From positions 1-52,902 of IMG/VR virus record IMGVR_UViG_3300021335_000025: DNA of 52,902 bases; one strand, written 5' to 3'. How positions within the stretch are numbered: position 1 is the stretch's first letter; every line of letters begins with the position of its first letter. Source of the stretch: a virus. Shown here in pieces: positions 6,315-38,490 of this stretch. Below the pieces are notes generated by a model, which was not told the DNA's origin, did no database searches, and saw only the letters and a list, made by a program, of their open reading frames with translations. The position numbers and the translations under genes are program-made.

Positions 6315-6352
6315 AGAAACTCCCTATCCCTAACATCAATCCTTATTATTTG

Positions 6353-6360
6353 TATTTATA
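6353..6360 (-). promoter_or_regulatory. T4-type late promoter (TATAAATA)
   Basis: The minus strand reads TATAAATA 39 bases before the ATG of the 1824-residue structural gene. This matches the NATAAATA late-promoter box of T4-like cyanophages, which gp55/gp33-type machinery recognises. The short gap between the 1051-residue and 1824-residue genes exists mainly to hold this box and the ribosome binding site. Confidence 0.7.
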
Positions 6361-6383
6361 AAACTATCAAATAGGATTATTGA

Positions 6384-9539: not shown

Positions 9540-9550
9540 TTATAATCTCC

Positions 9551-12500
9551 TTATCTTGTATATTGTGATTGAGAATAAAGAACTGTAAACTGTTGATTAA
9601 TAGCTCCGCCAGAAGAATTTCTTATGATAACATATGTATAAACATCGATAGATGGTTCAGAAACTGTTCCTGCATTTCCAGTATTAATATTCTCTCCACC
9701 ATAATAGTATGGAGTAATAGTTTGACTATCAATATTAACAATATTATTATAGTATGCAGTTGCTCCTTGTTTGGTTATAATAGCAACAGTCATTGATTCT
9801 CCTACATTTAAGAATCCATTAGTTCCTCCAAGAAATAATCCATCCCCTGGATCTTTTGTGCTGTCACCTAAGAAATTCAAAGACCAATTTCCAGCAGCAT
9901 TTTGAGTAAAGTAGTAAACATTATTGTCCGCAAGATAAATGGGTATTGCTGCTGGATCTGCGCCCAATACGCGAGGATCAATTTGTGCTTTTTCAATAAT
10001 TTCAAAAACTCTCAAAGAACCATTGATATTTACAGAACCTTCAACATAAAGTCCATAATCTTTTCTAGGATTAGTTGTATTAATTCCAACCTTAGTAACA
10101 GTAGTAATACCAACTTCTCCTGGTACGAGAATGCCTGCGTTATCAACTACAGGGCTACTAACCCAAATATCAGAAACTCCAGTTAGTCCTGATCCATCAC
10201 CAACAATCTTACCTCTAACAACTAATCCAACATCAGTATCTGTACTTGGATCTGTTCCGATTCCAGCTCTTCCATCATTTGTTACAGAAAATTGATTTGT
10301 TCCTTCTCCAATTACTAAAGGATTAGATCCTGTGTATCCTGGATTATTAACAATAACTTGATCAAAGAATTCTAGATCTGCATCGTCCGAAAGGCTAATT
10401 CCCCCAAATCTTGCCCAGTTCCCTGCAGAAGTGTAAACCCATCCAACATTACCACCAACATTTGGAAAAGCATCAAATACAACATCACCTGGATTTCCTG
10501 CAGATCTTGGTGTGGATAATCCAACAGTAACTTTTCTGGAAATTGTAGCATTACCTTGTAATAAGATATTATTTGCTTCAATACCATCGGAAGAATTTGA
10601 TGTTATTTTTTGATTAAAGATTACTGGACCATTAAATTGGGAAATATTATCTGATTCTGCTCCACCTTCAACTGTAATTGATTTACTTACTGAAACTATA
10701 TCTGGAGTAATATATTCAATTGCTTCATTCGAATTTGCTTCACCAGTAACTGATGGGATTGGAGTATCGAATGTTTCTCCTTTTCCAGTTGCTGAGATTT
10801 TTTTGTTTCCAATATAAAAATCTCCATCATTATTCATTCCAGTGTAGATAACTGCACCTGCTCCAAATTTTGAAGACTGTGAAAGAAGTTCTTCTTGTAC
10901 AGAAAGTTCCCTATCTTGTCTTTCTGGGAATGCTGATGAATAATTTCCTGGTCCAAATCCCAGATATTCAAATGTATGTCCACCTGCCCTGATAATTGAA
11001 TTTCTCCTAAATTCAATTGGGAAAATATTAATTTTTCTGATTAGATCATTGGAAGTATGATTTTGAGCAATTGTTCCAAGAAGTGCTCTATCAACTTCAA
11101 TTGAAGTTGATGAAGTTATAGTAGATCTAACTCTCATAATCTCAGAGTTTATCAACAAGAAATCTCCAATTTGCAAATCATAAACATTAGTAACCGTCAA
11201 TGTCGTTGAAGTAATTAAATCATTAATACTAGAAGAAAGATATGTTGTTACGTTTCCATAATTAAATATCATTCTTCCAAAAACGTTTTCATTTTCAGAT
11301 GATGTTGTTCCAGATCTTGAAGAAAGTCCATCATAATGCAATCTCTTTACACCTGTAGTAACTGCAGATGTTTTAATTCCAACATTAGTTGAAAATGTAG
11401 TTTTTAGTGGTGTTGTTAAAATAATTTTATCACCATTAAACAAATCATCATCTGCTCCAGAAATAACAACTTTATTGTTTCTATTAAGACCATGAGCTTG
11501 TGATGTTGCATAAGTGGCAATTCCAGAAGATGAATCATATTGAAGAGCAATAATTGACAATGATTTTCCAGTCATTGTTAATGATGCTGGTGCTGCTGAA
11601 GTTTCTCCGATACCAACACCAATTTGGGGATTTGAAATAGTTCCTACAGAATGTGCTTCAAATGTTTTAGGTCCTGTAATAGAATTAATTTTATAGAGTC
11701 TATTGTATTTTGTATAATTTTCATTAACAATTCCTGAAATAAGGAAGTTATCATTAGCATTATTGTAAATATTGGAGACTTCAACAACTCCTGGAGTATG
11801 GGAAACTCCTGTAGTTGCAATGCCAACGACAGATAATCTTTCACCAACTTGATATCCACTTCCACCATCCATAATCTGAACGGAACTTAGTCTTCCAAAA
11901 TCATCAACTATAACTTTTGCCGATGCCTCAGAACCAAACCCAGTTTGACTTATTAATTGTGCATTAAAAAATGTTTCAGAAACTCCTAATCCAGTTCCAT
12001 AATTTGAACCAGGATTAAGTGAATCTACAGTAACACTAATTGCTCTGTTTAATCCATGTTCAAGGCTTGTATTAAATTGGTGATAAGTTCCTGCAATACC
12101 AATACTAATAATATTATCAATCTGTTTTGAATTTTTTCCAAAATCCAATAAAGATTTTTGAATGGTTTCTTTTGTAATACTATTTTCAGCTTCGTTGACA
12201 ACAACCTTTCCGATTGGATTCGGAAGTGCAAAAGATTTTGCTGCTATCGGGTCTGCAGAAGGATTGTCTCTATTAGTTCTTGGATAGAGATTTAAAATAG
12301 GTTGACTAATATCTAATTCATTGAATGGTGTAGATGAAGGTGAATTTGAAGAATTTGTTACTGTTAAATGGTAAATACCATCTTGTTCACCTTTAATATA
12401 TTGTTGTATTTCTTCGGAGTTATAAATTGAATAAATTTCATTATATCTTTTCTTAGAAAATCTTGGAAGATTTCTGTCTCTTCTAGAAACGTTATTTAAA

Positions 12501-15324: not shown

Positions 15325-15936
15325 TTACCACACTTGAGGTTGCCAAGTCAATCGTTTTTTGAGTTCCTTATCAAATACCATCAAGTACCTATGTTTTCTA
15401 CTTCTATCTCTCCATTCACCTTCAGATCCCTTTATAGGACCTCTAGAATGCTTTGTTCCATCAGCATAATAAAAGTCTTTCTTACGATCTGTTAACCCAT
15501 AATAAGTAAAATTACAAGCTCTGTATATAACTCCAGAGTGGTGATTAGAGTCAGCATAACTAAGAATAGCACGAACATTTGCATCTTTACGAAACCTTTT
15601 AATGCAACGACTAACAAACCAAGAGGTTATATTATATTCTTGTTTCTGAACATCTGGATGGATACAAAGTCGGGAAAGCTCAAATAAACCTTCTTGTTGA
15701 TTTCTTTCTAACCCAAATGCTCCTCTGGCAATTTCTGGAACTGGGAGACCAGTAAAAATACAAGCGCCAAGAGACCCGCCAATGTTAAGAGGGCACTCCC
15801 ACTCAGTTCTTTTAAAAAGTCCATAGTTGAAACCTGATTTAAAATCTTTTGATTCATCTTTAAGATAGTGATAAGTATATAAGAGATCTTTAATCTCATT
15901 CTTACCAACTTTATCTATAATAAAATCCGATTTCAT
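15325..15936 (-). CDS. Mom-like acyltransferase (GNAT fold), putative DNA-modification protein
   Basis: A 203-residue protein whose C-terminal half resembles the phage Mu Mom family. Mom is a GNAT-type enzyme that adds a methylcarbamoyl group to adenine N6 to evade restriction. The recognisable core is ELSRLCIHPDV, then SYADSNHHSGVIYRACNFTY, then YGLT, and a basic RKHRYLMVF end. These match the order seen in Mom-like proteins (a Y-A-D-x-x-x-x-x-G-x-I-Y-R-A-x-x-F pattern). The N-terminus (YTYHYLK) also fits. It is the last gene of the tRNA-containing early unit and is followed by a strong terminator. The fold assignment is fairly secure. The substrate in this phage is inference, and a generic N-acetyltransferase is the alternative. 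Confidence 0.65.
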   Translation of the reverse strand: MKSDFIIDKVGKNEIKDLLYTYHYLKDESKDFKSGFNYGLFKRTEWECPLNIGGSLGACIFTGLPVPEIARGAFGLERNQQEGLFELSRLCIHPDVQKQEYNITSWFVSRCIKRFRKDANVRAILSYADSNHHSGVIYRACNFTYYGLTDRKKDFYYADGTKHSRGPIKGSEGEWRDRSRKHRYLMVFDKELKKRLTWQPQVW

Positions 15937-24498: not shown

Positions 24499-25086
24499 TT
24501 AAACGAAGTTCTTTTTATTATGTATCTTAGCAACGTTAGATGGAAATTTGGACTTCTTAATTTTTTGTGCTGAAGTTGCAACATCAACAAGACCACCGTA
24601 AATATCCATAGAAGCATCAGCAACTAATTGCATTGAACCAGAAGAAAAGAATTTTGCAACAGAGTCGGCATCAATTTTTATATTTTTTGATTTTAAATTA
24701 ATCTCTTCATTTGATTCTAAATTAATGACTCCCGCATTATTTTTAGTTCCTTCCGCAATTAAATCAATATTTTCAGCATCAAGTTTAATTCTTCCATTTT
24801 TTGCTCTAAAAACAATGTCACCATTAATTGCCTCAAAATAAATTCCATACTTATTATAAGGAATATCATCACCCGCTTTTACTTCAAATGCTCCTGGACA
24901 ACGAATAATAGTCCAACCTTGTCTACCTTTATCAGCATCAAGAGTTATATAATGCCTATAATCATATCCACTACGAACCATATATGCCGAAAGAACATTA
25001 TCATTATGAACGTGACCTCTTATAGTTTCACTATCTTTAGTTCCTTTTCTATGAGCGTGATAATTCCTCTGTAATTTATCTGCCAT
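24499..25086 (-). CDS. Baseplate spike-like beta-helix protein
   Basis: A 195-residue protein (MADKLQRNYHAHRKGTKDSE...). Residues ~90-165 show short repeated strands (DIVFRAKNGRIKLDAENIDL, EEINLKSKNIKIDADSVAKF, MQLVADASMDIYG). The spacing and the I-x-L/I-x-A pattern resemble the C-terminal triple beta-helix of T4 gp5 or VgrG spikes. The ATG overlaps the stop of the gp5-like gene (TAATG). It is therefore likely that the spike part of gp5 is a separate protein here, or that this is an accessory needle. That is inference from repeat type and position. Confidence 0.7.
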   Translation of the reverse strand: MADKLQRNYHAHRKGTKDSETIRGHVHNDNVLSAYMVRSGYDYRHYITLDADKGRQGWTIIRCPGAFEVKAGDDIPYNKYGIYFEAINGDIVFRAKNGRIKLDAENIDLIAEGTKNNAGVINLESNEEINLKSKNIKIDADSVAKFFSSGSMQLVADASMDIYGGLVDVATSAQKIKKSKFPSNVAKIHNKKNFV

Positions 25087-28000
25087 TAAAATTTACCTAC
25101 ACAATCTACAACAGAAATAATATTTTGACCTGGTGAAATCTCATCTTCAGGAAGATCGCCAATTCTACATACTGAAAATACAGGAATAAGTTTAGCATTG
25201 TACCCAGTCTCACTATCTATAAAGATTTCTGGAAGATCTAGGAAACCTTCTGAGTTCTTGATAATATTAACTTTTGCCAAAGAACCATTTTCATCAAACA
25301 CTGGTTCTAAAACAGCACCATAATTTGGTTCCATTACAATAGTATCTCCAGGACTATAATCAAAACCTGAATCTTTGATATAAATCTCATCTAAACATAA
25401 AACAACTGGATATTGACCATTACCAGAAGTTGGGAATTGTAAAGGAGATTCTAAATCATCGGGAATTTGTGGCGCGGTAATTTCGGCGGGATTTGAAACT
25501 TTATACGATACTCCTCCAGGAATATTTTCTAAAACATTTCCATCTGGTCCAAATATCTTTTCCGAAGTTCCTGCTGGCATACTCACTTCATCACCTGGAT
25601 TAAGTTTGATAACTTGTCCAGGATTATACGGTCTATCATAATCAAAATTTTCTCTTCTTACAGAAGTTTGCTCTTTAGTTTTCCAAATTCTTCCATCACC
25701 ACCTTCATCACCATCAAAACCTGACAAATATCCAGTTCCTGGATCAAGAATTATAACTTTTGCGACTCCACCTGGAGATTCTGTATTTTTATCTAATAAT
25801 TCTAAAGATGGTCCTTGAACTTTTTCAATTCTAAATGTTGCCCCACTTCCATTATCAACTGTTACAATATCTCCAACTTGATAGCCATCTCCAGGATCAA
25901 ATATTTCAATGCTAATTATAGAACCATCAATAATTTCTTCTGGATTAGTTTCATTTCCTTGATAGACAGCAGTAACTTCTTTTTCTTGATATGCGATAAT
26001 AAATTCTCCACCATTATCACCAACAGTTATTCTAGTTCCATCCATAGTAACTATTCTTCCACCAAATGCTCCTGCTTTAACTGGTTCTCCGCCAGTAGCA
26101 CCTGCTCTAATTTCTTTTATACCCGAAGTTAATTTGACATTACTTACTTCACTAACAACAGGAATTCCTCCTATTCCTCCTGCAGTGATAGGAAGTTCTC
26201 CGGCAAATACATTAGTTCCTCCAATACCCCCAACAGTTAAAGTTTTTGTTGAAACATTTGCAACATTACTACGTGGATTTGCAGATGCAAATGTAGAAAT
26301 TAATTGAGAATCAATTGCACCTAAAACTCCATCGTCACTTACATCAAGTATACCTGTTCCACCTATTGTATGAATACCAATATGTGCTAATATTTCGGCA
26401 TTAGTTGTCCTTGTTGCGTCAGGAGAAAGAGGAATTCCACTAAAATCTGTAATACCACTGCTATATGCAGCAAGTAGTGCGGAATCAGTATTCGTAATAA
26501 ATCCATCTCCATCAATATCAATAGCATCAAAATTATTTACAATTCTATCATAATCAGTTTTTGATAAATTTGATGGTTTTGTAAATTCTGGCGTTCCAAT
26601 TTGTATTGGAACTCCTCCTGCAGTTAATTTAATACCTTCAATAATCCGTACTGTTCTATCTTTATTAATATCTGGTGCAGGTGGTTGTCCGATTTCATCA
26701 ACAATTTCACCAATTACTGCATCGATTGTAGTTTCTATATTAACAGTCAAACCTTCACCAGTTCCACCTGTAGTTGAAACGTTAGAACCATCTGCATATC
26801 CTGTTCCTGAAGAAAGTAATACAACTTCTATTGGAGTTCCAGTAAAACCATCATTTCCTGCGAAAGGAACTTGACCACCAACTCCAGTTTGACCAATTGA
26901 CTGATCTGTTGGAGTTGTTTGAGTTTCTGGTAATGTTATTGGTTGACCATTACTTAAACCAGATGCAGAACCAGTTAATAATGTTGAAGCATCTATTAAA
27001 GTAGAATCTAAATCGATACCAGATCCTTGTCCACCTCTATTGTTATTGTTAAGGACAACTTTTGCTACGGCACCTTTTCCTTTTCCGCAAGGATCTCCAA
27101 TACTAATAAATGGTGCTTCTGTGTATCCAGAACCAGAACTTAAAATATCTACTCCGAGTATTTGTCCAGTTTGACTTACAATTGCATTTGCTGCCGCACC
27201 TACACCGCCACCGCCAAAAAATGACACTGTTGGTGGTCCACAAGGAACTGGACCGACTCCGCATCCAGCACCATCAAATAAATCATCAAATCCAATACCA
27301 GAAACTAATCCTGCGACATCTCCAACTGCACCAGTAACTTCATCAACAACTCCAATTCCAGATGCAGCTGCATTTAAAAATTGACCAGTTAATCCTTTAC
27401 CTGCCTTTTTTGCATTTTTAATAATTTTCTTTAAACTTACAGAACCCCCTCCATTATTCCCAGGTCCATCCCAAATACTCCACACATCAACAGATGGACC
27501 TTTTATTTTGGTTTCGCAAAAACTAAACCCAAGAATACCTTTCACAGTATCAAAAATTTCTCCTATTGCATTAAAACTAAGTGAAATTCCACCAATACCC
27601 TTAATTAAATTTGTTATAGAATTTAGGGGTTTGAATAATGCATCTAATGCCCCAGAAATTATTCCAGTAATTTTTCCTAAGAAACCTCCGACAAAATTTT
27701 CAAGCAGACATTCTGTTACATTGACTGCTTTTTTTGCAATATTTTTTAAAAAATTTCCAACTAATTTACCAAGTCCATTTAATGCTTTATTAAAAAGACA
27801 AGAAATTCCAAAGAGTACCTTGTCTCTTGCAGTTTTAACTCTTGGTCTTTCATTTGGCATAAAAAGGAAAGTCAATTTCTTGGAAATATCGTTTGCCTTT
27901 TCTATAACATTTTTTCTCAGTTCTTTAATAATCCATTTTATCTTACCAGAAACAAACTTAACTGCTTCATCTAATGCTTTTTGTATCTTATCCTGAAAAC

Positions 28001-28760
28001 TGTTTATTAAATCTTTTTGCTCTGAACCAAATTTTGAAAGATCTCTAAGAATTAACTCAATTTTACTAATCAAATTTTGTATATCAGTTTTTATTCCCTT
28101 AACTTGATTTGGTCCCTGAGATCTTAATTTTGATTGATGTGTAGGAATTATTGCTTCTTTTCTTTGAGACTCTTCCTGAGCATTTTCTAAATTAGTCGGA
28201 TTTTCTGCTGCAGTACTTATTTTTGGTTGAGGATCTTTTCTTATTCTCCCAGGTGATTTAGTTTGAATACCTTTTACACCTTCTCTATTTTCTTTTACAG
28301 CATATTGAGCTCTTTTGTCAAGTTTTTCATAACCATCAAAAGGAAGAAATGGAACTGGGGGAACATTTCTTTGGACAGCAGTGTATGAGTTATATCCAAT
28401 AACTCCCATAATAACTGGTTGTTGACCATCTTCACCGTCTAAGAAAAATCCAAAGACAAAATTTCCTTGTCTCAATTGGGTATTTTCTGATGCAGAAGCA
28501 CTACCAGCTCCAGCAGTCACTGGATACATTACTGTTGCCCAAGGCAAATCATTATCGGGAAGAGCCTTGTTATCTGCAGTATGGTATCCCATAATGCGAA
28601 CTCTATATCTTTCACCAAATCCCCTATGATCATCAGTCGTATTTGTTCTAAATGCGGGTATATTAGTTTTCCAAATTTTTGAATCAACAATTTGCCCTAT
28701 CCACCAGACAAATCCATCTCTTCCAACAAATTGTTTTTTAAACAGTTCGTGTTCAATCAT
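25086..28760 (-). CDS. 5: gp5-like baseplate central hub protein
   Basis: A 1224-residue protein. Residues ~10-135 form the gp5/VgrG-type OB-fold (FVWWIGQIVDSKIW, RYRVRIMGYHTADNKALPDN, LPWATVMYPV, FVFGFFLDGEDGQQPVIMGV). A helical, Lys-rich middle (~200-480) follows. Then come Gly-rich beta repeats (ILSSGSGYTEAPFISIGDP, VLLSSGTGYADG, IFDPGDGYQVGDIVTVDNG) that recur to the C-terminus. Around residues 750-820 two dockerin-like calcium loops occur (DIDGDGFITNTDSALL and DVSDDGVLGAIDSQLI). I see no T4-lysozyme domain, and the muralytic domains sit in the 1292-residue protein instead. The start overlaps the end of the 70-residue gene. It should form the hub at the tail tip. Confidence 0.85.
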   Translation of the reverse strand: MIEHELFKKQFVGRDGFVWWIGQIVDSKIWKTNIPAFRTNTTDDHRGFGERYRVRIMGYHTADNKALPDNDLPWATVMYPVTAGAGSASASENTQLRQGNFVFGFFLDGEDGQQPVIMGVIGYNSYTAVQRNVPPVPFLPFDGYEKLDKRAQYAVKENREGVKGIQTKSPGRIRKDPQPKISTAAENPTNLENAQEESQRKEAIIPTHQSKLRSQGPNQVKGIKTDIQNLISKIELILRDLSKFGSEQKDLINSFQDKIQKALDEAVKFVSGKIKWIIKELRKNVIEKANDISKKLTFLFMPNERPRVKTARDKVLFGISCLFNKALNGLGKLVGNFLKNIAKKAVNVTECLLENFVGGFLGKITGIISGALDALFKPLNSITNLIKGIGGISLSFNAIGEIFDTVKGILGFSFCETKIKGPSVDVWSIWDGPGNNGGGSVSLKKIIKNAKKAGKGLTGQFLNAAASGIGVVDEVTGAVGDVAGLVSGIGFDDLFDGAGCGVGPVPCGPPTVSFFGGGGVGAAANAIVSQTGQILGVDILSSGSGYTEAPFISIGDPCGKGKGAVAKVVLNNNNRGGQGSGIDLDSTLIDASTLLTGSASGLSNGQPITLPETQTTPTDQSIGQTGVGGQVPFAGNDGFTGTPIEVVLLSSGTGYADGSNVSTTGGTGEGLTVNIETTIDAVIGEIVDEIGQPPAPDINKDRTVRIIEGIKLTAGGVPIQIGTPEFTKPSNLSKTDYDRIVNNFDAIDIDGDGFITNTDSALLAAYSSGITDFSGIPLSPDATRTTNAEILAHIGIHTIGGTGILDVSDDGVLGAIDSQLISTFASANPRSNVANVSTKTLTVGGIGGTNVFAGELPITAGGIGGIPVVSEVSNVKLTSGIKEIRAGATGGEPVKAGAFGGRIVTMDGTRITVGDNGGEFIIAYQEKEVTAVYQGNETNPEEIIDGSIISIEIFDPGDGYQVGDIVTVDNGSGATFRIEKVQGPSLELLDKNTESPGGVAKVIILDPGTGYLSGFDGDEGGDGRIWKTKEQTSVRRENFDYDRPYNPGQVIKLNPGDEVSMPAGTSEKIFGPDGNVLENIPGGVSYKVSNPAEITAPQIPDDLESPLQFPTSGNGQYPVVLCLDEIYIKDSGFDYSPGDTIVMEPNYGAVLEPVFDENGSLAKVNIIKNSEGFLDLPEIFIDSETGYNAKLIPVFSVCRIGDLPEDEISPGQNIISVVDCVGKF

Positions 28761-28969: not shown

Positions 28970-30316
28970 TTAATCTATAATTTGTGTGGAATTAAACGAA
29001 TCTCTAATTAAGGTTAAACTAGTATAAGTATCTTCTGGTGTTATCCTATGACACAAACTAGCAATTAAGTATTTTCCTTTTGTCTCCTTATTTGGTTTTT
29101 TGTTTTTATTCTTTGTGAGATCTGGAAAATCGCATTCAATTATATCACCTACTCTAAGACTAAAATCACCTGCTATAATAATATTAGTCTTAATTGTATA
29201 TAGCTGATTATAACGCATGATGGATTGAACCATTAATTTTGGTGCATCATAATTAGCATATTTTGGATCATTTTTCCAGGTTTTCAATTGTGCGTTTGGA
29301 TTATTTCCAGATGGCATAGTTCCATAGTCTAAAACCAAATTCATTAATCTTGAAGGTGCTTCTGTAAATTCATCTGGGACAAATAATACATTTTCTTCTG
29401 CTGGTTTTATTCCATCTATTTGATTGAATTTTAGATTATAATTTCTAACTTCATAATCCATCGCATACAAATCAAAAAATAAGCTTCTGTTTGCATATGT
29501 TCCCATAGAAACATTTTGTTGAAGATCAATGTCTCTATCAATACTCACAGACAATATTTTATCTGTATACTGCGTTGATTTATTTATGTTTGGCGCATTT
29601 GTATATACATATTTTTTTTCATCTTTTGGTTTCTGAGAAAGTAATATATCAATCGATTTAAATTTAAATCCATCATAAGTTTCATAGAAAAAATAACCAG
29701 CAGCACTATTAATCTTCCCAGTTCCTTCTGGAGCTCCCTTTGTTGCTAACCAAGTACAAACATAAAATGGTTTTCGGTCATTTCCAATAAAATTGTATGG
29801 AATAATTGTTGAATCAACTTCAATATCCTTTGTAGTATTCAATCCATTTTTATCTCTTAGTATTTGTATTACATTTTCGGAAATCTTGTTATCATATCTT
29901 TTTACAACTCTTGTCTGTTCATTTGCCAAAAACTCTCTAGTACATAGATCAAGAATAAAAACTTCTTTTTGAGTTCCTGGATTTGCATTTTTAATTCTAT
30001 TCACATAAAAACCTTGAGTTCCAAATTCTAATACATTCTTTTTTTCTTGATTGTCTGAAAATTTTATAGATACTCTTTCACCACCTCTAATGGGCAATCC
30101 ATCCAGAAGACCTATCATTTCATTTTTTTGAAATTCCAATCCTCCAGAATCTGCAACAACAACTCTCATGGTAATTGAATTTGATAACAAATTCTCATAG
30201 TAATTTAATTCAACTATTGAAGCAGCAATGTCAAGACCCTTCTCACTATATTTTCCAGTAGTGGGGAAGATCGTAAATAATTTTATATCCGATGGTAAAA
30301 CTTTCTGGTTAGACAT
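28970..30316 (-). CDS. Baseplate hub protein, gp27-like by position
   Basis: A 448-residue protein starting MSNQKVLPSDIKLFTIFPTT. It is beta-rich throughout, with SITMRVVVADSGGLEFQKNE and IRGGERVSIKFSDN near the N-terminus. A VGDIIECDFPDLTKNKNKK strand pair and KGKYLIASLCHRITPEDTY lie near the end, resembling hub proteins of the gp27/gpD superfamily. It lies directly upstream of gp5 and a small gene, the place expected for the gp27 ring that holds the spike. The assignment rests on position and the C-terminal VGD..., G-x-Y-L-I-x-x-x-x-H motifs rather than full similarity to T4 gp27. Confidence 0.65.
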   Translation of the reverse strand: MSNQKVLPSDIKLFTIFPTTGKYSEKGLDIAASIVELNYYENLLSNSITMRVVVADSGGLEFQKNEMIGLLDGLPIRGGERVSIKFSDNQEKKNVLEFGTQGFYVNRIKNANPGTQKEVFILDLCTREFLANEQTRVVKRYDNKISENVIQILRDKNGLNTTKDIEVDSTIIPYNFIGNDRKPFYVCTWLATKGAPEGTGKINSAAGYFFYETYDGFKFKSIDILLSQKPKDEKKYVYTNAPNINKSTQYTDKILSVSIDRDIDLQQNVSMGTYANRSLFFDLYAMDYEVRNYNLKFNQIDGIKPAEENVLFVPDEFTEAPSRLMNLVLDYGTMPSGNNPNAQLKTWKNDPKYANYDAPKLMVQSIMRYNQLYTIKTNIIIAGDFSLRVGDIIECDFPDLTKNKNKKPNKETKGKYLIASLCHRITPEDTYTSLTLIRDSFNSTQIID

Positions 30317-30321
30317 TTAAA

Positions 30322-33300
30322 TTATATTTTATAAAATGCTGAAACAATAACTTGCTTTAAGGATTTATTGTAAATATCTATATTACTATTTACACTACCA
30401 ATCAAACTTCCTCCCGATTTATTAATCCTACCATTAACTGTATTGGGTGATGATGAACCTTGCATTGGTATCATTATAATATTACTAGCACCTTCCTTTT
30501 CATATGATGCTTCTTCTTTTATTGAATTAACACTTGGACCAGTGTAAGAGCCATCTGCTAATGCATCAAGATAAAACTGTTTTACTTTTCCACCTTCTAT
30601 TTTAAAGTTTAGATCATATTTTGCTTGTTCTTTAGATGAAGAACTCGAAGGAGTTGGGGAACTTGAAGAACTCGAAGGAGTTGGGGAACTTGAAGAACTT
30701 GAAGGAGTTGGGGAACTTGAAGAACTTGAAGGAGTTGGGGAACTTGAAGAAGATGATGCTATACTTGGATCTGGTTGAATAGTTCCCCCAAAAGGAGCAT
30801 CAATACCATATTTTGATAATGGATTAAATCTAGAAAGAACTGCTGATTTTGATCTTCCAGTATCACTTGGATTTGTTGCTGTTTCCCAATGTAAGTGAGG
30901 ACCATCAGATCTACCAGTACTACCAAGTTCTCCAAGAATTGTTCCTTTTTTAATTCTTTGACCTTTTCTAACAAATGCTGGTTTATTCATATGAGCATAA
31001 AAATGACCAATCCCATTATCGTCAATCCAACTTACCCAATTACCATATCCACCTGCTTCATAACCAGTATCCTGAACAACTCCATCACTAAATGCTTGTA
31101 ATGGTTCTCCGGTTGTTCCATTAATATCAACTCCCATATGCATTCCTGGAGATAATGCAAAATCTCTCATTCCCATACCAGAAGTTAATACTCTCTTTCC
31201 ACCTCCCATAATAAATTCAGAAGCTTTATGTTTTTTCACAGGACCACCATTTCCTTTTCCTCCTCCCATAGCAGACATCTTTGATTTAATCATATCACGA
31301 AGTTTTGGTCCACCACTACCAAATCTATCAGATTGTGATAACTTATCCAAATCCCATCTTTGAACTGGTGGGGACAGTATTCCCGCTGGAACCGCATATC
31401 TTTCCCATTCACCGTGAGTTTTAACATTGCTATCAACTTTTGCTGGAGTCCATCCCCAACTCTTTGCCAAGTTTGCTGCTTCAGATGTCATAACATCCAA
31501 TTGCTTGGTCGTTGGTGGAGTCTTTAAATTATTTTCAGTTGCTCCTGCTGCAGCAGCGACAGCAAGACCAACCGAATTTGTATTTCCTCCTGCTGTATGA
31601 CCACTCTTGTCCTTATCATAAGGAGTATTTTGAACTTTTTCACCACTACCCAAGACAATACTATGGTATGCTGAAAATGGAGTATTATATCCTCCAGCAG
31701 ACCAATGTAAAAATATTTTTCTATTTTTTACATCTATAGGAGATCCAGCAACAGTAGGTCGATTACTATCTGGAGATTTGCCTCCACCTCCACTCGAAGA
31801 GGATGACGCTTTTGTTATAGATGTAGAAGTTGCTCCAAAATTGGGGATTGCTCCGATAGTATTTCCACTATAATTCCAATCCCATCCAAAATAATTATCA
31901 CCTTTCTTTCTCAATATTTGTCCTTTTCTTTCTGATTTTGGGTAATTTGTAAAGTCAGTTCTTCCTCCAATAAAATCTATCGCATCTTTTTGATACTTTG
32001 GATTTAATATTGCATCTGCCGCACCTTTAACAAAATCTTCAGAAGTTCCTGTGGCAGCAGATGCTGAAGATAAATCTTTAATTTGTAACCACTCTGGATT
32101 TGGTACACCATTCCCCTTTGATGCTCCATTTGGATATCTCCAAGTTGGTTCATATTGCCAAGTTCTCGTAATCAATCCAGATATTGATTTTGTCCCATAA
32201 GCACCAGATGCTGCTCTATTGTAAATTGATTGAGCAACATCTGCTCTTCCTTGAGGATCACCATCTTCTCTTGATGCAACAGCAGCAAGAGTCCAAAAAT
32301 CGGAAGTTCCTCCAGAAATATTAATTTTTGATTGTTGTTGTGGAGTATTGGTAGAGGTTCCTTTATTTGGATTTTCCTTATAAGATTCAGATTTAATTCT
32401 TTTGTCATCATAATCATTGTTTAATGAAACTCTGGTCAAATCATTAAATATTGCTTTTTTTGCCCACTCGGTAAGATCTTCCGAAATTGGTTCTACAAGT
32501 CTCTTATTAAATCCAAAAACTTTACTTTCCGATAAGGCATCACCTACCGAATAACCAATTTGTTTTGCTGCATTATCAGTTCTTGTTTTGTTTATTTTTT
32601 CACCCAATCCAACATCGAGACTAATTTGCATCAGTTCTCCAACAAAAGAACTAGTGCCCAGTTTGCTTCTAATTTCTTTATAAGTCTCTAAAGATTTTTC
32701 ATCTGTAAAAATATTTTTCTTAGCATTACTTTCAGTTGCTGAAGAAACTTTGGAGTTTATTGTGGAAATTGTTCCTGGAGATGAAGTTGAACTACTTCTA
32801 CTAACTACAGATGTGCTTCTTTGGCCAATTCTACCTGCAGAATACTTTTGCTCAACAGGATCAACAGGTGCTTCCTTATCTGCCACAGCTTGGAGACCAA
32901 TTAAATTAGAATATATTTTCTTTCCTGCCCAATCACCAATAGCACCGCCAACCGCACCTCCTACCCAAGTTCCAACAACAGGAATAGGAATTATACCAGT
33001 TCCTATTGCTGCACCAACTGCTGTTCCTAAAGATGCTCCAGCTGCTCCCGCAATTGCCTTATCAACTCTTTCACCCATTGCAAGATCAATACCAATCCCA
33101 ATGAGTGCGCCAATAAAGGGAATTTTTTTAAATAAATTTGAAACAAATTTAAATCTTTTTACAATATTTACTGCATTTCCAGCTGCTTTGATTGCAGATC
33201 CTCCTGCTTTGACAGCACCACCAACAACCTTTCCGACAACTTTAGCAGTACCTTTAACAATAGGAGTAGCTGCTTTTACTGCACCTGGAACAAGTTTTTT

Positions 33301-34200
33301 TGCTAATTTTAGAGCAAGACCTGTTGCCCCTTTTATAAGATTAAAAATTCTTTTTCCGGCAAAACCAAGAACTTTTTTTACAATAGAACCAGATTTCTTT
33401 ATAAGAGGTGCTGAAAACTTTAATATTTTTTTTCCAAGATTAAAAACAAATCTAATTTGTCTCCTAAAAAGAACACTTGCACTGATAATTGAAAGTCTAA
33501 CTCTTTGCCAGACATTAGTTAAACCATTAGCAATTTCCTCAAACATTTCAAGTATTTGAGGAATATACTTCCACAAATAATTGACTAAAGACCCTAATAA
33601 TACGTTTTTAATAAAACCACTAATAAGATCAAGAAAACCTGGAGACTTTTTTCCTTTTTTTGATTTTGGTTTTTTAGTTTTTTCTTTAGTTGCTTCTAAA
33701 TTATCTTCTTTATTTTTTCTTTTTGAAAACTCCTGCTCTCTTCTTCTATTTCTTTGCTCACTTAAAAAACTTGACAAATTACTACTAGAAATTTTCTTTA
33801 TAGTAATTAAATTGTTTTTTATTTTTGTAAGTTCATCTATTAATTCTGAACCATCAAATTTCTTTTGATTGGATGAAGTTTCTTCTTTGTCTATTAAAGA
33901 TAATTTTTTAATATCAATCTTTTTAGTTTTTACTAAAAAACCACCAGATCCTCCACCTCCTCCAAATCCACCACCAAAAAATCCTCCGGAACCTCCTTCA
34001 CCACCATCGCCAGAATCTCGTTTTACTAATCCACCACCTTTACCATCATCCTTTTTTTTAATAAAAGACTGTGCCTTTTTCTTTGCAATATCTTTAACCT
34101 TTTCTTTAGCAAAATTTTTAGAAGCAGTTTTTAGACCTTGTTTTAGACCTTGAGATGCTATTATTCTTCCTGCTCCAAGTAATGCTGCTGGTAGTGCCAT
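30322..34200 (-). CDS. Large tail protein with three peptidoglycan-hydrolase domains (SleB-like, amidase, M23)
   Basis: A 1292-residue protein. The basic N-terminus (~1-190) is followed by a VLLGSLVNYLW segment and several hydrophobic or Gly/Ala-rich stretches (~190-430) that could cross a membrane. Around residues 628-750 lies a SleB-like wall hydrolase (LAAVASREDGDPQGRADVAQ). Around 825-950 is an N-acetylmuramoyl-L-alanine amidase with zinc ligands in FLHWSAGG and KTHGEW. Around 1000-1125 is an M23 (LytM) endopeptidase with HMGVDI, YAHM and HLHWE. A Ser/Pro linker of four 9-residue units follows, then a module shared with the next gene. GGAGG precedes the ATG. A cell-puncturing or tape-measure-associated role is inferred. 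Confidence 0.85.
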   Translation of the reverse strand: MALPAALLGAGRIIASQGLKQGLKTASKNFAKEKVKDIAKKKAQSFIKKKDDGKGGGLVKRDSGDGGEGGSGGFFGGGFGGGGGSGGFLVKTKKIDIKKLSLIDKEETSSNQKKFDGSELIDELTKIKNNLITIKKISSSNLSSFLSEQRNRRREQEFSKRKNKEDNLEATKEKTKKPKSKKGKKSPGFLDLISGFIKNVLLGSLVNYLWKYIPQILEMFEEIANGLTNVWQRVRLSIISASVLFRRQIRFVFNLGKKILKFSAPLIKKSGSIVKKVLGFAGKRIFNLIKGATGLALKLAKKLVPGAVKAATPIVKGTAKVVGKVVGGAVKAGGSAIKAAGNAVNIVKRFKFVSNLFKKIPFIGALIGIGIDLAMGERVDKAIAGAAGASLGTAVGAAIGTGIIPIPVVGTWVGGAVGGAIGDWAGKKIYSNLIGLQAVADKEAPVDPVEQKYSAGRIGQRSTSVVSRSSSTSSPGTISTINSKVSSATESNAKKNIFTDEKSLETYKEIRSKLGTSSFVGELMQISLDVGLGEKINKTRTDNAAKQIGYSVGDALSESKVFGFNKRLVEPISEDLTEWAKKAIFNDLTRVSLNNDYDDKRIKSESYKENPNKGTSTNTPQQQSKINISGGTSDFWTLAAVASREDGDPQGRADVAQSIYNRAASGAYGTKSISGLITRTWQYEPTWRYPNGASKGNGVPNPEWLQIKDLSSASAATGTSEDFVKGAADAILNPKYQKDAIDFIGGRTDFTNYPKSERKGQILRKKGDNYFGWDWNYSGNTIGAIPNFGATSTSITKASSSSSGGGGKSPDSNRPTVAGSPIDVKNRKIFLHWSAGGYNTPFSAYHSIVLGSGEKVQNTPYDKDKSGHTAGGNTNSVGLAVAAAAGATENNLKTPPTTKQLDVMTSEAANLAKSWGWTPAKVDSNVKTHGEWERYAVPAGILSPPVQRWDLDKLSQSDRFGSGGPKLRDMIKSKMSAMGGGKGNGGPVKKHKASEFIMGGGKRVLTSGMGMRDFALSPGMHMGVDINGTTGEPLQAFSDGVVQDTGYEAGGYGNWVSWIDDNGIGHFYAHMNKPAFVRKGQRIKKGTILGELGSTGRSDGPHLHWETATNPSDTGRSKSAVLSRFNPLSKYGIDAPFGGTIQPDPSIASSSSSSPTPSSSSSSPTPSSSSSSPTPSSSSSSPTPSSSSSKEQAKYDLNFKIEGGKVKQFYLDALADGSYTGPSVNSIKEEASYEKEGASNIIMIPMQGSSSPNTVNGRINKSGGSLIGSVNSNIDIYNKSLKQVIVSAFYKI
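30539..30628 (-). repeat. 90-bp segment duplicated at 35136-35225
   Basis: Encodes the KIEGGKVKQFYLDALADGSY module near the C-terminus of the triple-hydrolase protein. It differs from the copy in the adjacent tape-measure-like gene at only three of 90 positions by hand alignment. Confidence 0.9.
30641..30756 (-). repeat. Tandem 27-bp repeats encoding a Ser/Pro linker
   Basis: About four near-identical 27-base units, each encoding six Ser followed by Pro-Thr-Pro. They form a flexible linker between the M23 domain and the C-terminal module. Unit number may vary between relatives by slippage. Confidence 0.9.
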
Positions 34201-34213
34201 TTATAATTCCTCC

Positions 34214-37200
34214 TTACATTCCCCAGATATTATAAATTGCGGCAACTGTTACCATAGTTTGTTGATTATCATCAAATGAATTGATAGTTGGTATTGAAGT
34301 TGTTCCAGTTTTTGTCATTCCAGTTTTCATTGTTTTGGATTGATTTTCTCCACCAGGCATTGGTATTATTGTTGTGGATGATCTAGATTGTGGTATACTT
34401 GGAATTGTTGGAGTTTTTGTTGGTGTAATTTGTGGTTGAGTTGGTGGAGTATATGAAGAACCTCTATTTTCTCTTCTATTTTGGAATGTTGTCTGTAATA
34501 ATGTTTTTCTTGGTTGATTCGACTGAGAAGATGTTGGAGTTAATGACTTAAAAGATGGTCCATTTCTTTTTGCATTTTCAGAAGCAACTATAACTCTTTT
34601 TTCAACCTCTTCTGGAGAAAGACCTTCTGCTCTTGCCTTTGCTCTTGCTTCTTTTGCAGCCTCAAATACATGTGGCATTGATGCAGCAGTCTTTGTAGGA
34701 TCCAATATACTTGAACCACTACCTCCCATTCCTCGTACTAACTGTTTAATATTATTAGTATTATTATTAGTATTATTAGTAGTAGTATTAGTAGTATTAT
34801 TCATTGATGCAGCAGTCTTTGTAGGATCCAATATACTTGAACCACTACCTCCCATTCCTCGTACTAACTGTTTAGTAGTATTAGTAGTAGTATTAGTAGT
34901 ATTATTCATTGATGCAGCAGTCTTTGTAGGATTCAATATACTTGAACCACTACCTCCCATTCCTCGTACTAACTGTTTAGTAGTATTAGTATTATTATTA
35001 GTATTATTAGTAGTATTATTATTAGTAGTATTATTATTAGTATTATTAGTATTATTATTAGTAGTATTAGTAGTATTAGTAGTATTAGTATTGGAAATAA
35101 AGTTGGAAGCTGAAGAGGAACTTATATTCCTTTTTCCAGTGTAAGAACCATCTGCTAATGCATCAAGATAAAACTGTTTTATTTTTCCACCTTCTATTTT
35201 AAAGTTTGGATCATATTTTGCTTGTATAGAACTACTTGAAGATGAGGTGTTATCAGAATCTACGGCAACTGTTCTAAGATACTCTGGTGCCGCAGCAGGA
35301 TTATCTGCGCCTGGCATAAGTGTAACTCCCTCATCATCCTTATTTTTTCCGGGCATAGCAAACTCTGCTGCTGCTTTTGCCGCGAAAATTCGTGCTTCTT
35401 TTTCAGTTACATTTAATTTTTTCCAATAATCATAATTTGCTTTATAAGACCTGGAATACCAGAACCAAAGATCTGCATCTTTATGAGATTCTATTTTTAT
35501 TTTTTTAGAATCTAGAAGACTCATATTATCATAATCATTAAACCAGTTTTTTAATTCTATAGAGTTTGTAACCAATTTTCCTTCTGGACTCTGGGGATTC
35601 ACTCCAGTAAATTTATCATTCAATCCTAAGAAAGAACTTTGAACCAACTTATTAATTTGTTTTACAATATAAGTATCTCCAGTTTTTTCATATCTTATGA
35701 CATAATTTTTCTTTTCTTTATCACCAACCTTTATGTGTGTTGTATGTTTTGTATTTTTCACATACTCATCTGGAATTAACTGTCTGCCCTCTTTAGTTTC
35801 AACTTTTGGTGCATTATTGGGAGGATCACTTTTCTTTAATTTATATTCTATTGAACCTTTCGATTCAGACTGTTTAGTTTCATCTTTTGGTGCATTATTG
35901 GAAGAGTCACCTTGATTTAATTTATATTCTGTTGAACCTTTCGATTCAGACTGTTTAGTTTCAACTTTTGGTGCATTTTGAGTGGGAGTAGTTGTTGAAG
36001 AACCTCCGCCTTTGTGAGCATCATTTCTACGACCTCCAACAGAACCACCAGTATTCATTGCCTCAATGTTAATATCACCAATACTTGCTGTTCTTCTTTC
36101 AGATCTTCCACCAAACATATAATTAACTTTATCCAAATATTCTTCTCCACCCAACCAATTAACTGCTCCGGGTTTCAAAACATATTCTCCGAGAGAAAGT
36201 GCAGTTAAATATTGATCTGGTCCTAAACCAGATATTTTTGTATTAACTGTATTATTATTAACTACACCACCTTCAATTGAAACAGTATCATTTCCAATAG
36301 TTGGAGTTTTTCTTTGGGGTGGAGTTGTGGACCCACCCGTATTCTTAGTAAGAACGGGACTAAGTTTAGTAATAGATCCACCCGTATTCTTAGTAAGAAC
36401 GGGACTAAGTTTAGTAATAGATCCGCCCGTATTCTTAGTAAGAACGGGACTAAGTTTAGTAATAGATCCGCCCGTATTCTTAGTAAGAACGGGACTAAGT
36501 TTAGTAATAGATCCACCATTAAACTTTACATTAACTCCAGGAGCAGATTGTTGTTTTTGTTGTGGTTCTGCTGGTTCTGGTTCTCTATTTCCAACAATGT
36601 CCGGTGCTTGAAGTTCGGGTATTTTTGGAATGTTTGGAATAACTCCCTTATCTGGATCATTTGGCAATTGGGGTGCACCAGGAATGAACTTGAGTGCTCC
36701 ATTTATCATATCAATAAATCCACTTATGGCAGAATTTATAGAATCAATAAATCCTCTTACTGGTTGAATAAGTTTATTATCAATAAATTGTAGAATACTA
36801 TTAAAGACTCCAACAATACCATCAAACAAATCTTGTATTGGCTGCAAAAGAATTTTTGGATTTTTGATAACAGAAAATAACCAATTTACTGCAGACCCTA
36901 AAAGAACCATCATAATAAAGTTCTTTATAGTATCAAAAATATTCGTAAATGGTTTTATAACTTTATCGAGTAATTTTGATCCTTTTGAAGATTGTTTTTT
37001 TGATTCTAATTTATTCTCTTTTCCTGCCTTTTTTTGTTTATTTTTTTCAATTCTATTTTTTTCTCCTGATTTTTCGTTTGCCTGTGATTGCTTTTTGAAA
37101 ATATTTACAATATCTTCTGTAAGACTACGAATCTCTTTAACTATACTTAAAAGATCTCCGTTTAAAAATTTGTATAATTTATCAACTGTATTATCTTTTT

Positions 37201-37585
37201 GATCTTCTATATCATCAATTGGTTCTACCCGACTTGCTTTTATTGCTTCTGGAGAACCTGCTAAAAGTTTTGATGAGTCCGTTGGTTTATTTTGTTCTCT
37301 ATTTCTTCTTCCAAAGAAACTATCTACATTTACTGTTTTCTTTGGTGCAGTAGTAAATGTAGATTCCTTTAAATCTCTTATTCTTTTTCTTTCATTGGCA
37401 ATTTTTGCCAAATCTTCTTCGGATAACTTTAACTTTTCATCGAAAGCACCTTTTGCGATTGCTTCCTTCATTAAAGTCATATATTCATCATATTCTAAGT
37501 CAAAGTTATCCTCCAACCCAAGAATTTTGGCAATTTCTGGATCTATGGTTTGGGTTTTAGTTTGGGTTGGATCCTCGGCTGCCAT
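34214..37585 (-). CDS. Tape-measure-like large tail protein
   Basis: A 1123-residue protein with a charged helical N-terminus (~1-210). A hydrophobic segment (FIMMVLLGSAVNWLF, ~225-245) aligns with the same region of the triple-hydrolase protein. Amphipathic helices follow. Four tandem 15-residue repeats (NTGGSITKLSPVLTK) lie near residues 358-418. Then comes ALSLGEYVLKPGAVNWLGG, which resembles the GE[FY]V...AV..LG motif seen near the C-terminus of phage tape-measure proteins. The rest includes the KIEGGKIKQFYLDALADGSY module, Asn/Thr-rich linkers and three copies of KQLVRGMGGSGSSIL. It lies just downstream of the gp26/small-ORF pair, the usual position of a tape-measure gene. The assignment is moderate. 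Confidence 0.7.
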   Translation of the reverse strand: MAAEDPTQTKTQTIDPEIAKILGLEDNFDLEYDEYMTLMKEAIAKGAFDEKLKLSEEDLAKIANERKRIRDLKESTFTTAPKKTVNVDSFFGRRNREQNKPTDSSKLLAGSPEAIKASRVEPIDDIEDQKDNTVDKLYKFLNGDLLSIVKEIRSLTEDIVNIFKKQSQANEKSGEKNRIEKNKQKKAGKENKLESKKQSSKGSKLLDKVIKPFTNIFDTIKNFIMMVLLGSAVNWLFSVIKNPKILLQPIQDLFDGIVGVFNSILQFIDNKLIQPVRGFIDSINSAISGFIDMINGALKFIPGAPQLPNDPDKGVIPNIPKIPELQAPDIVGNREPEPAEPQQKQQSAPGVNVKFNGGSITKLSPVLTKNTGGSITKLSPVLTKNTGGSITKLSPVLTKNTGGSITKLSPVLTKNTGGSTTPPQRKTPTIGNDTVSIEGGVVNNNTVNTKISGLGPDQYLTALSLGEYVLKPGAVNWLGGEEYLDKVNYMFGGRSERRTASIGDINIEAMNTGGSVGGRRNDAHKGGGSSTTTPTQNAPKVETKQSESKGSTEYKLNQGDSSNNAPKDETKQSESKGSIEYKLKKSDPPNNAPKVETKEGRQLIPDEYVKNTKHTTHIKVGDKEKKNYVIRYEKTGDTYIVKQINKLVQSSFLGLNDKFTGVNPQSPEGKLVTNSIELKNWFNDYDNMSLLDSKKIKIESHKDADLWFWYSRSYKANYDYWKKLNVTEKEARIFAAKAAAEFAMPGKNKDDEGVTLMPGADNPAAAPEYLRTVAVDSDNTSSSSSSIQAKYDPNFKIEGGKIKQFYLDALADGSYTGKRNISSSSASNFISNTNTTNTTNTTNNNTNNTNNNTTNNNTTNNTNNNTNTTKQLVRGMGGSGSSILNPTKTAASMNNTTNTTTNTTKQLVRGMGGSGSSILDPTKTAASMNNTTNTTTNNTNNNTNNIKQLVRGMGGSGSSILDPTKTAASMPHVFEAAKEARAKARAEGLSPEEVEKRVIVASENAKRNGPSFKSLTPTSSQSNQPRKTLLQTTFQNRRENRGSSYTPPTQPQITPTKTPTIPSIPQSRSSTTIIPMPGGENQSKTMKTGMTKTGTTSIPTINSFDDNQQTMVTVAAIYNIWGM
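34676..34979 (-). repeat. Three 73-bp repeats separated by Asn/Thr-rich low-complexity DNA
   Basis: Copies at 34676-34748, 34802-34874 and 34907-34979 encode KQLVRGMGGSGSSIL(D/N)PTKTAASM. They are separated by stretches made of ATT/AGT triplets that encode poly-Asn/Thr. The low-complexity run continues to about 35095. Confidence 0.9.
35136..35225 (-). repeat. 90-bp segment duplicated at 30539-30628
   Basis: Second copy of the module DNA, in the tape-measure-like gene. Flanking sequence is unrelated apart from low-complexity Ser or Asn/Thr linkers. Confidence 0.9.
36333..36512 (-). repeat. Four tandem 45-bp repeats with internal inverted repeat
   Basis: Units begin at 36333, 36378, 36423 and 36468 and are almost identical. 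Each encodes NTGGSITKLSPVLTK. Each unit contains CCCGTATTCTTAGTAAGAAC followed by GGG, which folds into a hairpin (CCCG/CGGG plus TTCTT/AAGAA). They create long open frames in other frames that are not genes. Confidence 0.95.
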
Positions 37586-37767: not shown

Positions 37768-38490
37768 CTATCCGAAAAAACTAGAAAGTCCTTCAAGAAC
37801 AACCTCACTTTCAACTTTAGTATTTGGATTTTTAATAATAGTTGAATAATGTAGTTTTGGCATAGTTTCAAAGAACTTCTCAATTTGCTTAAATTGGGTC
37901 GAGTTCATCTGTTCTAAGAAATCAACCAGTTCTTTCTTGGTTACATCGGAAGAAGCCCAAACTTCCTCAGAATTGTAAATTTTATCAATACAAGAAACAA
38001 TCAAATCAAATGATTGATCCATATTATTTGCATCTGCAGAAAAATCAAAATTACTCTTGATAAATTGTTCAAGTGATGGATACTTCATTTCCATCATCAA
38101 ATTATCATCAATTTTGATTTGATTTGTATGCTCATCATTTCGTTTAATTTGAATTTCATCAATCGCAATTTCTTTTTTTACGGTTGTATCATTATCATCA
38201 GGACAAATTAGATTGACATCAATCACTTCTCCTACTGATTTTCCACGAATGTTAAGAAAGAGATATTCAATATCAAATGTAGGAAGCGTTTCTACTTTAA
38301 CTCCCCTAGTTTGAATGCAGTTTTTAATAACCGTTTTAATTGCAGTTGTGATTTCCTTTGTGTCTTCACTCTCTAATGCAAGAACTAATAGTTTTTCTTC
38401 CCTAACTAAAAATGGTCTATACTTAATGTTTTGTCCAGTTGATGGCAATTCCAACTCATATGTTGGTGTCGAAATCTTTGGTAATGGCAT
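37768..38490 (-). CDS. 26: gp26-like baseplate hub / tail assembly protein
   Basis: A 240-residue protein starting MPLPKISTPTYELELPSTGQ, the hallmark start of the T4 gp26 baseplate-hub family. It continues with KYRPFLVREEKLLVLALESE, a segment shared across the family. T4 gp26 is a little shorter (about 208 residues). It has no membrane segments and is helical in its last third (ELVDFLEQMNSTQFKQIEKF). The last codons read AGT TTT TTC GGA TAG, containing a canonical -1 slippery heptamer. It follows a GATAAATA late promoter 31 bases upstream and precedes the 56-residue frame by 2 bases. A role as tail-assembly chaperone in the lambda G/GT sense is inferred from this arrangement. Confidence 0.85.
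   Translation of the reverse strand: MPLPKISTPTYELELPSTGQNIKYRPFLVREEKLLVLALESEDTKEITTAIKTVIKNCIQTRGVKVETLPTFDIEYLFLNIRGKSVGEVIDVNLICPDDNDTTVKKEIAIDEIQIKRNDEHTNQIKIDDNLMMEMKYPSLEQFIKSNFDFSADANNMDQSFDLIVSCIDKIYNSEEVWASSDVTKKELVDFLEQMNSTQFKQIEKFFETMPKLHYSTIIKNPNTKVESEVVLEGLSSFFG
37773..37779 (-). promoter_or_regulatory. Candidate -1 ribosomal frameshift site (T TTT TTC)
   Basis: The minus strand reads T TTT TTC in phase with gp26 codons TTT and TTC, three codons before its TAG. A -1 slip continues CGG ATA GCC ATG GTC into the 56-residue frame without a stop. The 3' stimulatory structure was not examined by folding. Confidence 0.6.

Follow-up and report, generated by a model that had tools for sequence, protein, structure and literature searches.

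A T4-like phage protein with three peptidoglycan hydrolase domains and the exchangeable enzyme slot in which it lies

How does a T4-like phage breach the wall of its host when the gp5-like spike protein of its tail carries no recognisable lysozyme? The question is raised by a virus record of 52,902 bases (IMG/VR record IMGVR_UViG_3300021335_000025, positions 1 to 52,902; here called the window), in which a gene within the tail and baseplate block encodes a protein, B, with domains of three peptidoglycan hydrolase families on a single chain. Upstream of B lies a second large gene, A, the product of which has an N-terminal part related to that of B. A first-pass annotation made from the sequence alone had described B as an unusual virion protein that would cut glycan, amide and peptide bonds. 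The analysis reported here bears out much of that description and adds a larger pattern that the annotation had missed, namely that the A/B pair is a slot with exchanged enzymes.

Three hydrolase domains on one chain

The B gene is an open frame with an ATG start and no internal stop, with the following layout.

30322..34200, minus strand: protein B, 1292 residues, the putative three-hydrolase virion protein
32824..34200, minus strand: B residues 1-459, N-terminal part related to that of A through a shared helix and hydrophobic segment (window-seeded profile)
33571..33639, minus strand: hydrophobic segment, B 188-210 (Kyte-Doolittle scan)
32935..33147, minus strand: hydrophobic glycine-zipper region, B 352-422 (Kyte-Doolittle scan)
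31873..32307, minus strand: SleB/Hydrolase_2-like domain, B 632-776, with the likely catalytic Glu645 at 32266-32268
31270..31728, minus strand: Amidase_2/T7-lysozyme-type domain, B 825-977, with His832, Tyr845, His868, His929 and Asp950
30865..31152, minus strand: Peptidase_M23 domain, B 1017-1112, with His1021, Asp1025, His1070, His1102 and His1104
30634..30756, minus strand: Ser/Pro tandem-repeat linker, B 1149-1189, DNA period 27 bp (Tandem Repeats Finder)
30538..30627, minus strand: 30-residue segment common to B (1192-1221) and A, 93% identical (blastp)

A full-length copy of B, 98% identical, is encoded on contig L001 from another, independent metagenome, so B is not an assembly chimaera. 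The only gaps between the two copies are 2 residues at residue 598 and 15 residues in the Ser/Pro linker, which is the shorter in L001.

As the first-pass annotation had claimed, one intact chain carries a SleB-like glycan cleaver, an amidase of the Amidase_2/T7 lysozyme type and an M23 endopeptidase in tandem. Each has the expected active-site residues. At the strict cut-offs of a hidden Markov model search, the refuting test that this annotation had itself named, only one of the three calls stands. Peptidase_M23 was found at residues 1020-1110 with 82.9 bits against a Pfam cut-off of 28.7 (E=1.9e-23), but Amidase_2 (19.3 bits, E=0.0015, curated cut-off 26) and Hydrolase_2, the SleB family (18.3 bits, E=0.0037, curated cut-off 27), fell short. 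The identification of the amidase and the SleB-like domain is supported by family profiles and by relatives that pass the cut-offs and, for the amidase, also by its predicted fold. Profiles built from the window segments match the same stretches as above-cut-off Pfam models in named phages such as Syn33, in which B scores 27.1 bits for Amidase_2 and 27.8 bits for Hydrolase_2. Several homologues pass the Amidase_2 cut-off, that of S-8S29 with 36.6 bits, while Hydrolase_2 is passed by homologues in B of Syn33 and A of SynMITS9220M01.

Searches against solved structures matched the M23 profile to many M23 peptidases (best E=4e-30), the SleB profile to the spore cortex-lytic enzyme SleB (PDB 4f55, E=2e-4) and the amidase profile weakly to T7 lysozyme (E=0.026). 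In an AlphaFold2 model of all three domains the M23 part resembled LytM (Z 14.4, root-mean-square deviation (rmsd) 2.8, 124 aligned) and the SleB-like domain reached a confidence of about 92 over most of its length, but the amidase was poor, below 50 over much of its length. Because of this, and of the weak T7 lysozyme match, the amidase was folded alone with more sequences (AlphaFold2, 52 sequences). It then reached a mean confidence (pLDDT) of 84, with a predicted fold close to AmpDh2 (Z 13.4, rmsd 4.2, 132 aligned) and T7 lysozyme (Z 11.0, rmsd 2.8, 122 aligned) and with peptidoglycan recognition proteins (PGRPs) also among the matches. Structure prediction thus agrees with the annotation for the amidase and M23 domains. 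For the confidently modelled SleB region the comparison was masked, the fold lists of the three-domain model holding essentially M23-type matches that speak neither for nor against a SleB fold.

The M23 signature is a zinc and catalytic set of the form HxxxD ... H ... HxH, and this set is present in B. In the amidase, His832, Tyr845, His868 and Asp950 are invariant across the 52 sequences and His929 is conserved in at least 90%. Of the two zinc histidine motifs that had been reported for this domain, KTHGEW contains only the later zinc histidine, His929; Asp950 probably serves as third ligand. The counterpart of Glu645 stands 16, 17 or 18 residues before an NR motif or its equivalent in 49/49 distinct SleB segments. 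The catalytic and zinc roles of Glu645 and of the amidase and M23 sets are presumably those known for their families. Pfam finds no Gp5_OB or Phage_lysozyme match in B, gp5 being a separate gene.

Hydrophobic stretches at the N terminus had also been described; they are present, at 188-210 and 352-422, but in the first third of B and not at its extreme end. Here Pfam Gly-zipper_Omp matches residues 388-429 below its cut-off (E=0.006) and the tape-measure family phrog_794 of PHROG matches residues 286-436 (E=1.4e-5). Profiles seeded with A and with B each match both proteins, indicating that the two N termini are related. Beyond the 30-residue segment of the window pair, another segment, of 19 residues, is common to A and B in the relatives L020 and L219. 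Such segments may possibly be common docking or exchange sequences.

The A/B locus and its products in virions

Gene order in the window is gp32, a baseplate wedge gene, a gp48-type cap gene, a gp4-type head closure gene, a tail-tube-type gene, gp26, A, B, a gene at the gp27 position and gp5, so that B is encoded within the tail and baseplate block, between gp26 and the gp27-position gene.

37768..38490, minus strand: gp26-like baseplate hub protein, the upstream landmark (phrog_150, E=2.6e-78)
34214..37585, minus strand: protein A, 1123 residues, upstream partner of B, without a recognised hydrolase in the window genome
36104..36193, minus strand: tape-measure-like motif in A, from residue 465 (motif count)
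35135..35224, minus strand: copy in A of the 30-residue segment common to A and B (blastp)
28970..30316, minus strand: hub or tail protein at the gp27 position, downstream of B (phrog_350, E=2.7e-99; T4-GC15 of cyanophages, at the same position in cultured cyanophages)
25086..28760, minus strand: gp5-like central spike protein with an OB domain (Gp5_OB, E=2.2e-6)

The order from gp26 through A, B and the gp27-position gene to gp5 is kept in 6/6 of the named cyanophages first examined and in P-SSM2, where A is T4-GC13 and B is T4-GC14. Among named phages, gp26 (74% identity) and gp32 (67%) have their closest matches in Synechococcus and Prochlorococcus myoviruses, and on this ground the host is likely a cyanobacterium. 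In the window, positions 34676-36517 of A are rich in tandem repeats (a 45-bp unit repeated 4.1 times, an 81-bp unit 2.3 times, units of 105 and 126 bp, and Asn/Thr runs), and three repeat stretches of A are shorter in L001, by 15, 27 and 96 residues. A Mom-like DNA modification protein is also encoded among the tail genes (15325-15936; phrog_1384, E=5e-30).

The claim that B is a virion protein is supported by its counterparts. In S-SCSM1 (MK867354), ORF213 and ORF214 stand at the positions of A and B, are matched by the A profile (E=1.5e-72) and the B profile (E=1e-59) respectively and are annotated as virion proteins; both were detected in the virion proteome by mass spectrometry, according to the text of PMC9602691. 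At the same locus in S-CREM2, Table 3 of PMC10665884 gives 73 unique peptides for ORF208 and 71 for ORF209 in purified virions. Homology is strong for both S-SCSM1 proteins and for ORF208, which the A profile matches with E=3e-12. The protein at the gp27 position, T4-GC15, was itself detected in S-SM1 virions (as reported in PMC3037559), and the S-CREM1 virion proteome as listed in PMC9964418 comprises only 14 proteins.

The absence of a recognisable lysozyme from gp5, likewise part of the first-pass annotation, extends well beyond the window. The window protein gave no Pfam hydrolase match at E<=1. Gp5_OB was detected in 40/61 gp5 homologues (46,000 residues in total, with mutual identity below 80% on a rough position-by-position count), and a peptidoglycan hydrolase at E<=0.001 in 0/61. 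Fourteen complete named cyanomyovirus genomes were also searched with Amidase_2, M15_3, GH19, Phage_lysozyme, VanY, Hydrolase_2, M23, M15_4 and SLT. Of 14 above-cut-off matches 13 lie in A or B, so that the recognisable wall-cutting domains of these phages sit in this pair, and the other is a separate 194-residue frame of S-CRM01. GH19 weakly matched a 236-residue frame of S-CREM2 below its cut-off, and M15_4 weakly matched the A-position protein of S-CRM01. For these nine families, other endolysin families not having been searched, 13/14 genomes show no separate endolysin above cut-off.

Exchange of enzymes at the A/B locus

Neighbourhoods were collected through gp26 and the gp27-position gene regardless of the enzymes they held (the best 80 of more per query). 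Among 93 such domain-blind loci, the window excluded, the combined A and B enzyme sets were M23 alone in 21, SleB alone in 8, M23 with SleB in 6, amidase alone in 3 and all three in none. Many relatives thus have only one recognisable enzyme in A/B, or none, a point to set beside the suggestion in the first-pass annotation that three may suit a thick cyanobacterial wall. When multi-enzyme cases from loci chosen for their amidase were added, all three enzymes were found in 6/171 distinct pooled B sequences, from four lineages and in two orders, SleB-amidase-M23 in the window/L001 lineage and L219, amidase-SleB-M23 in L200 and in L185/L187. Three enzymes on one chain are therefore rare among relatives. 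The longest set is that of L185, in which B (2152 residues, 3742-10197, plus strand) has five hydrolase matches: M23, Phage_lysozyme, M15_3 and Amidase_2 above cut-off and Hydrolase_2 below.

Other families occupy the slot elsewhere. From 97 neighbourhoods, 54 complete B proteins without the three domains were scanned with Pfam and gave Phage_lysozyme2 (9), DPBB_1 (2), SLT (2), GH19 (2), Glucosaminidase (1), SLT_3 (1), Phage_lysozyme (1) and Hydrolase_2 (1). A scan of 51 of the 96 complete A proteins gave Phage_lysozyme (2) and one each of Phage_lysozyme2, SLT_3, SLT, Amidase_2, GH19 and M15_3. Across relatives the pair holds at least 12 Pfam hydrolase families, M23 and VanY included. In L209 (803-9984) three A/B-type genes stand in a row instead of two, with SleB in the first and SleB and amidase in the second; L053 and L167 likewise have three large frames at this locus.

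Sister B proteins with flanks 74-94% identical differ by the replacement, gain or loss of a single enzyme. The window B and its L002 counterpart share 80% of positions in residues 1-598 and 74% from residue 815 onwards, but L002 has no SleB and carries instead an unrelated segment matching the PHROG endolysin family phrog_5867 (E=8.5e-84). An SLT identity for this segment was considered and could not be confirmed (nothing in Pfam at E<=10, no meaningful PDB match and, as the only family matched, the 'endolysin' phrog_5867). B of L219 and B of L020 share 80% of their residues to one side of the amidase and 94% to the other, L020 lacking the amidase itself, while L212 and L219 are 71% identical over amidase, M23 and C terminus, with SleB replaced in L212 by a segment with a weak SLT match (E=0.023). 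A conserved C-terminal domain with an HxxGxAxD-type pattern occurs in L219 (7033-7575), L116 (9123-9842) and also L212; a possible M15-like identity suggested by this motif was not counted, as Pfam gave no match and a Peptidase_M15_4 search missed 8/8 records.

The turnover can also be read from a FastTree phylogeny of one gene, that at the gp27 position, for 94 loci, on which undetected domains would inflate the number of changes. SleB (15/94 carriers) required 14 changes against 14.1 in shuffled data, which is no detectable phylogenetic signal. M23 (28 carriers) required 14 against 24.1, a number that 0/200 shuffles reached, which is a signal, yet with many changes. The A/B pair can be described as a slot with rapid turnover, its hydrolase modules being swapped, acquired, lost and rearranged from one relative to another. 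When repeats common to A and B were sought as exchange sites, only 5 loci had them, and the method showed none inside B; we therefore make no claim of recombination at repeats.

Cultured cyanophages fill the same slot differently. In S-SCSM1 the likeness to the window lies in position, in homologous A and B and in their presence in virions; the enzymes differ, with a glucosaminidase in A and a VanY carboxypeptidase in B, one per protein and neither from the three families of the window. B of Syn33 and S-8S29 carries two above-cut-off hydrolases at this locus (Amidase_2 and Hydrolase_2 in Syn33, Amidase_2 and SLT in S-8S29) but differs from the window B in having two enzymes, the amidase first, without M23. 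Shuffling of domains has been described for phage endolysins, and mosaicism for tape measure proteins (in passages of PMC10684548).

Role of protein B

We consider it likely that B belongs to the virion-associated peptidoglycan hydrolases, with a place in the tail hub region of a T4-like, cyanomyovirus-related phage, and that it would act in wall breaching at entry. Two marks of such enzymes, peptidoglycan hydrolase domains and a gene within the tail or baseplate module, are both seen for B. From what was computed here (domains, active-site residues, synteny, module exchange and no detectable hydrolase in gp5) we infer the following course. The first third of B, hydrophobic, related to A and probably helical, would most likely anchor the protein in the tube or hub of the tail, and it may also help B to cross or sit in a membrane. 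On contraction of the sheath B would be ejected into the periplasm, where, if active, the SleB-like domain would cut glycan strands, the amidase remove stem peptides and M23 cut cross-links, the three acting together to open a local hole for the tube. The likeness to the T4 tail lysozyme would lie in this job, the breaching of the wall by a contractile tail hub. The window gp5 has no detectable lysozyme and the enzymes sit in another protein, and B would take over what in T4 is given to the lysozyme domain of gp5.

Several points weigh against this reading. Two of the three domains score below their curated cut-offs and the SleB fold comparison was masked. None of the three enzymes was detected in 55/93 domain-blind relatives. 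The S-SCSM1 authors caution that CsCl purification may leave proteins of this kind in the preparation (PMC9602691), and in the relevant passages of PMC9602691 and PMC10665884 the proteomics of S-SCSM1 and S-CREM2 treats the A/B counterparts as non-structural. S-CREM2 ORF209, the counterpart of B, is matched by neither the A nor the B profile, so that its link to B is positional only.

The strongest competitor, to which we give somewhat less than an even chance, is that B, and A with it, are tape measure proteins with fused enzymes, which would set tail length, be expelled first and form a membrane channel with their hydrophobic part. The title of a work referenced in PMC6116005 presents T5 pb2 as tape measure, fusogenic and muralytic; pb2 and other muralytic tape measure proteins named in PMC6116005 are, like B, large tail proteins with a wall-cutting domain. 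Tape-measure PHROGs match the motif region of A in L036 (best E=3e-11), more weakly that in L180, and the hydrophobic region of B, and the motif GE[YF]V[IMVL] occurs in 57/156 A and 12/171 B proteins as against 3/694 other open reading frames of at least 300 residues. The longest A of the set (1565 residues, beside a B of 1456) belongs to S-CREM2, whose tail measures 418 nm; S-N03 (138 nm) has 933 and 722, and A and B of S-H34 are also short. The lengths nevertheless do not scale with the tail: A ranges from 412 to 1565 residues and B from 319 to 2213, S-CRM01, with a tail of 140-170 nm, has a single 864-residue protein at the locus, and against the published tail sizes of four cluster C phages A/B lengths are not proportional. 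The window B lacks the strict motif that the window A has, and contains Ser/Pro repeat linkers. While pb2 is a tape measure, B carries three enzymes, and for it a tail-measuring role is only a rival reading. In S-CREM2, moreover, ORF124 (2668 residues, 450 unique virion peptides) is another tape-measure candidate. The product of this frame (OR473000, 84976-92982) is, by our own estimate, as large as a helical tape measure should be for a tail of roughly 400 nm.

It is unlikely that A and B are mainly endolysins for progeny release, found in purified virions by carry-over. Authors and annotators do call the counterparts endolysins, those of S-CREM2 in PMC10665884 with the remark that ORF208 and ORF209 may lie inside the capsid, and the single above-cut-off match outside A/B, in S-CRM01, means that a separate endolysin is not evident in most of the 14 genomes, for the nine families searched. 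Carry-over sits poorly with 71-73 unique peptides per protein in S-CREM2 virions (PMC10665884). An endolysin would, furthermore, be expected as a separate lysis protein outside the structural block; B is very large, lies inside the baseplate hub block and shares its N terminus with A. A second role of B in lysis keeps some weight. More improbable still is that M23 is the working enzyme and that one or two of the domains now only bind wall fragments. The low Amidase_2 and Hydrolase_2 scores of the window B would fit this, as would the PGRPs among the amidase fold matches, PGRPs being binding-only relatives of that fold. The active-site residues, however, are kept, both in the amidase (His, Tyr, His and Asp in all 52 sequences) and at the SleB glutamate (49/49).

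The unusual character that the first-pass annotation had ascribed to B agrees with a review (PMC6116005, section 7), according to which a single catalytic domain is typical of the virion lysins of Gram-negative-host phages, two are frequent where the host is Gram-positive, and endopeptidases occur almost exclusively in this second group. Tail lysins with two domains are known from enterococcal phages, such as the M23 and NLPC/P60 protein of Kochikohdavirus (described in PMC10194240), which resembles B in having several catalytic domains and differs in having two of them and a Gram-positive host. In the open-licence PMC papers searched, no description was found of a virion protein with three hydrolases from T4-like cyanophages.

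Beyond the window, a wider proposal is put forward tentatively, and we hold it to be somewhat doubtful: that A and B of T4-like cyanophages form an interchangeable cartridge dedicated to wall breaching, which took the place of the gp5 lysozyme, in which the same three bond classes were assembled in different orders in separate lineages, with up to five enzymes per chain (L185), and in which the turnover of the set is rapid enough to track the wall chemistry of the host. As only one of the 14 genomes searched shows a separate endolysin above cut-off, the pair may on this view serve both entry and lysis. Enzyme turnover in A/B would, if this is right, be a testable case of host-driven enzyme exchange. 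A second question raised is how these phages lyse their hosts and where their endolysin is. The role proposed here for B would break the one-catalytic-domain rule stated in section 7 of PMC6116005 for Gram-negative-host phages. It would name a gene pair usually annotated as 'hypothetical' or 'endolysin' as the wall-breaching part, and would explain how abundant T4-like phages of the ocean breach the wall without a gp5 lysozyme.

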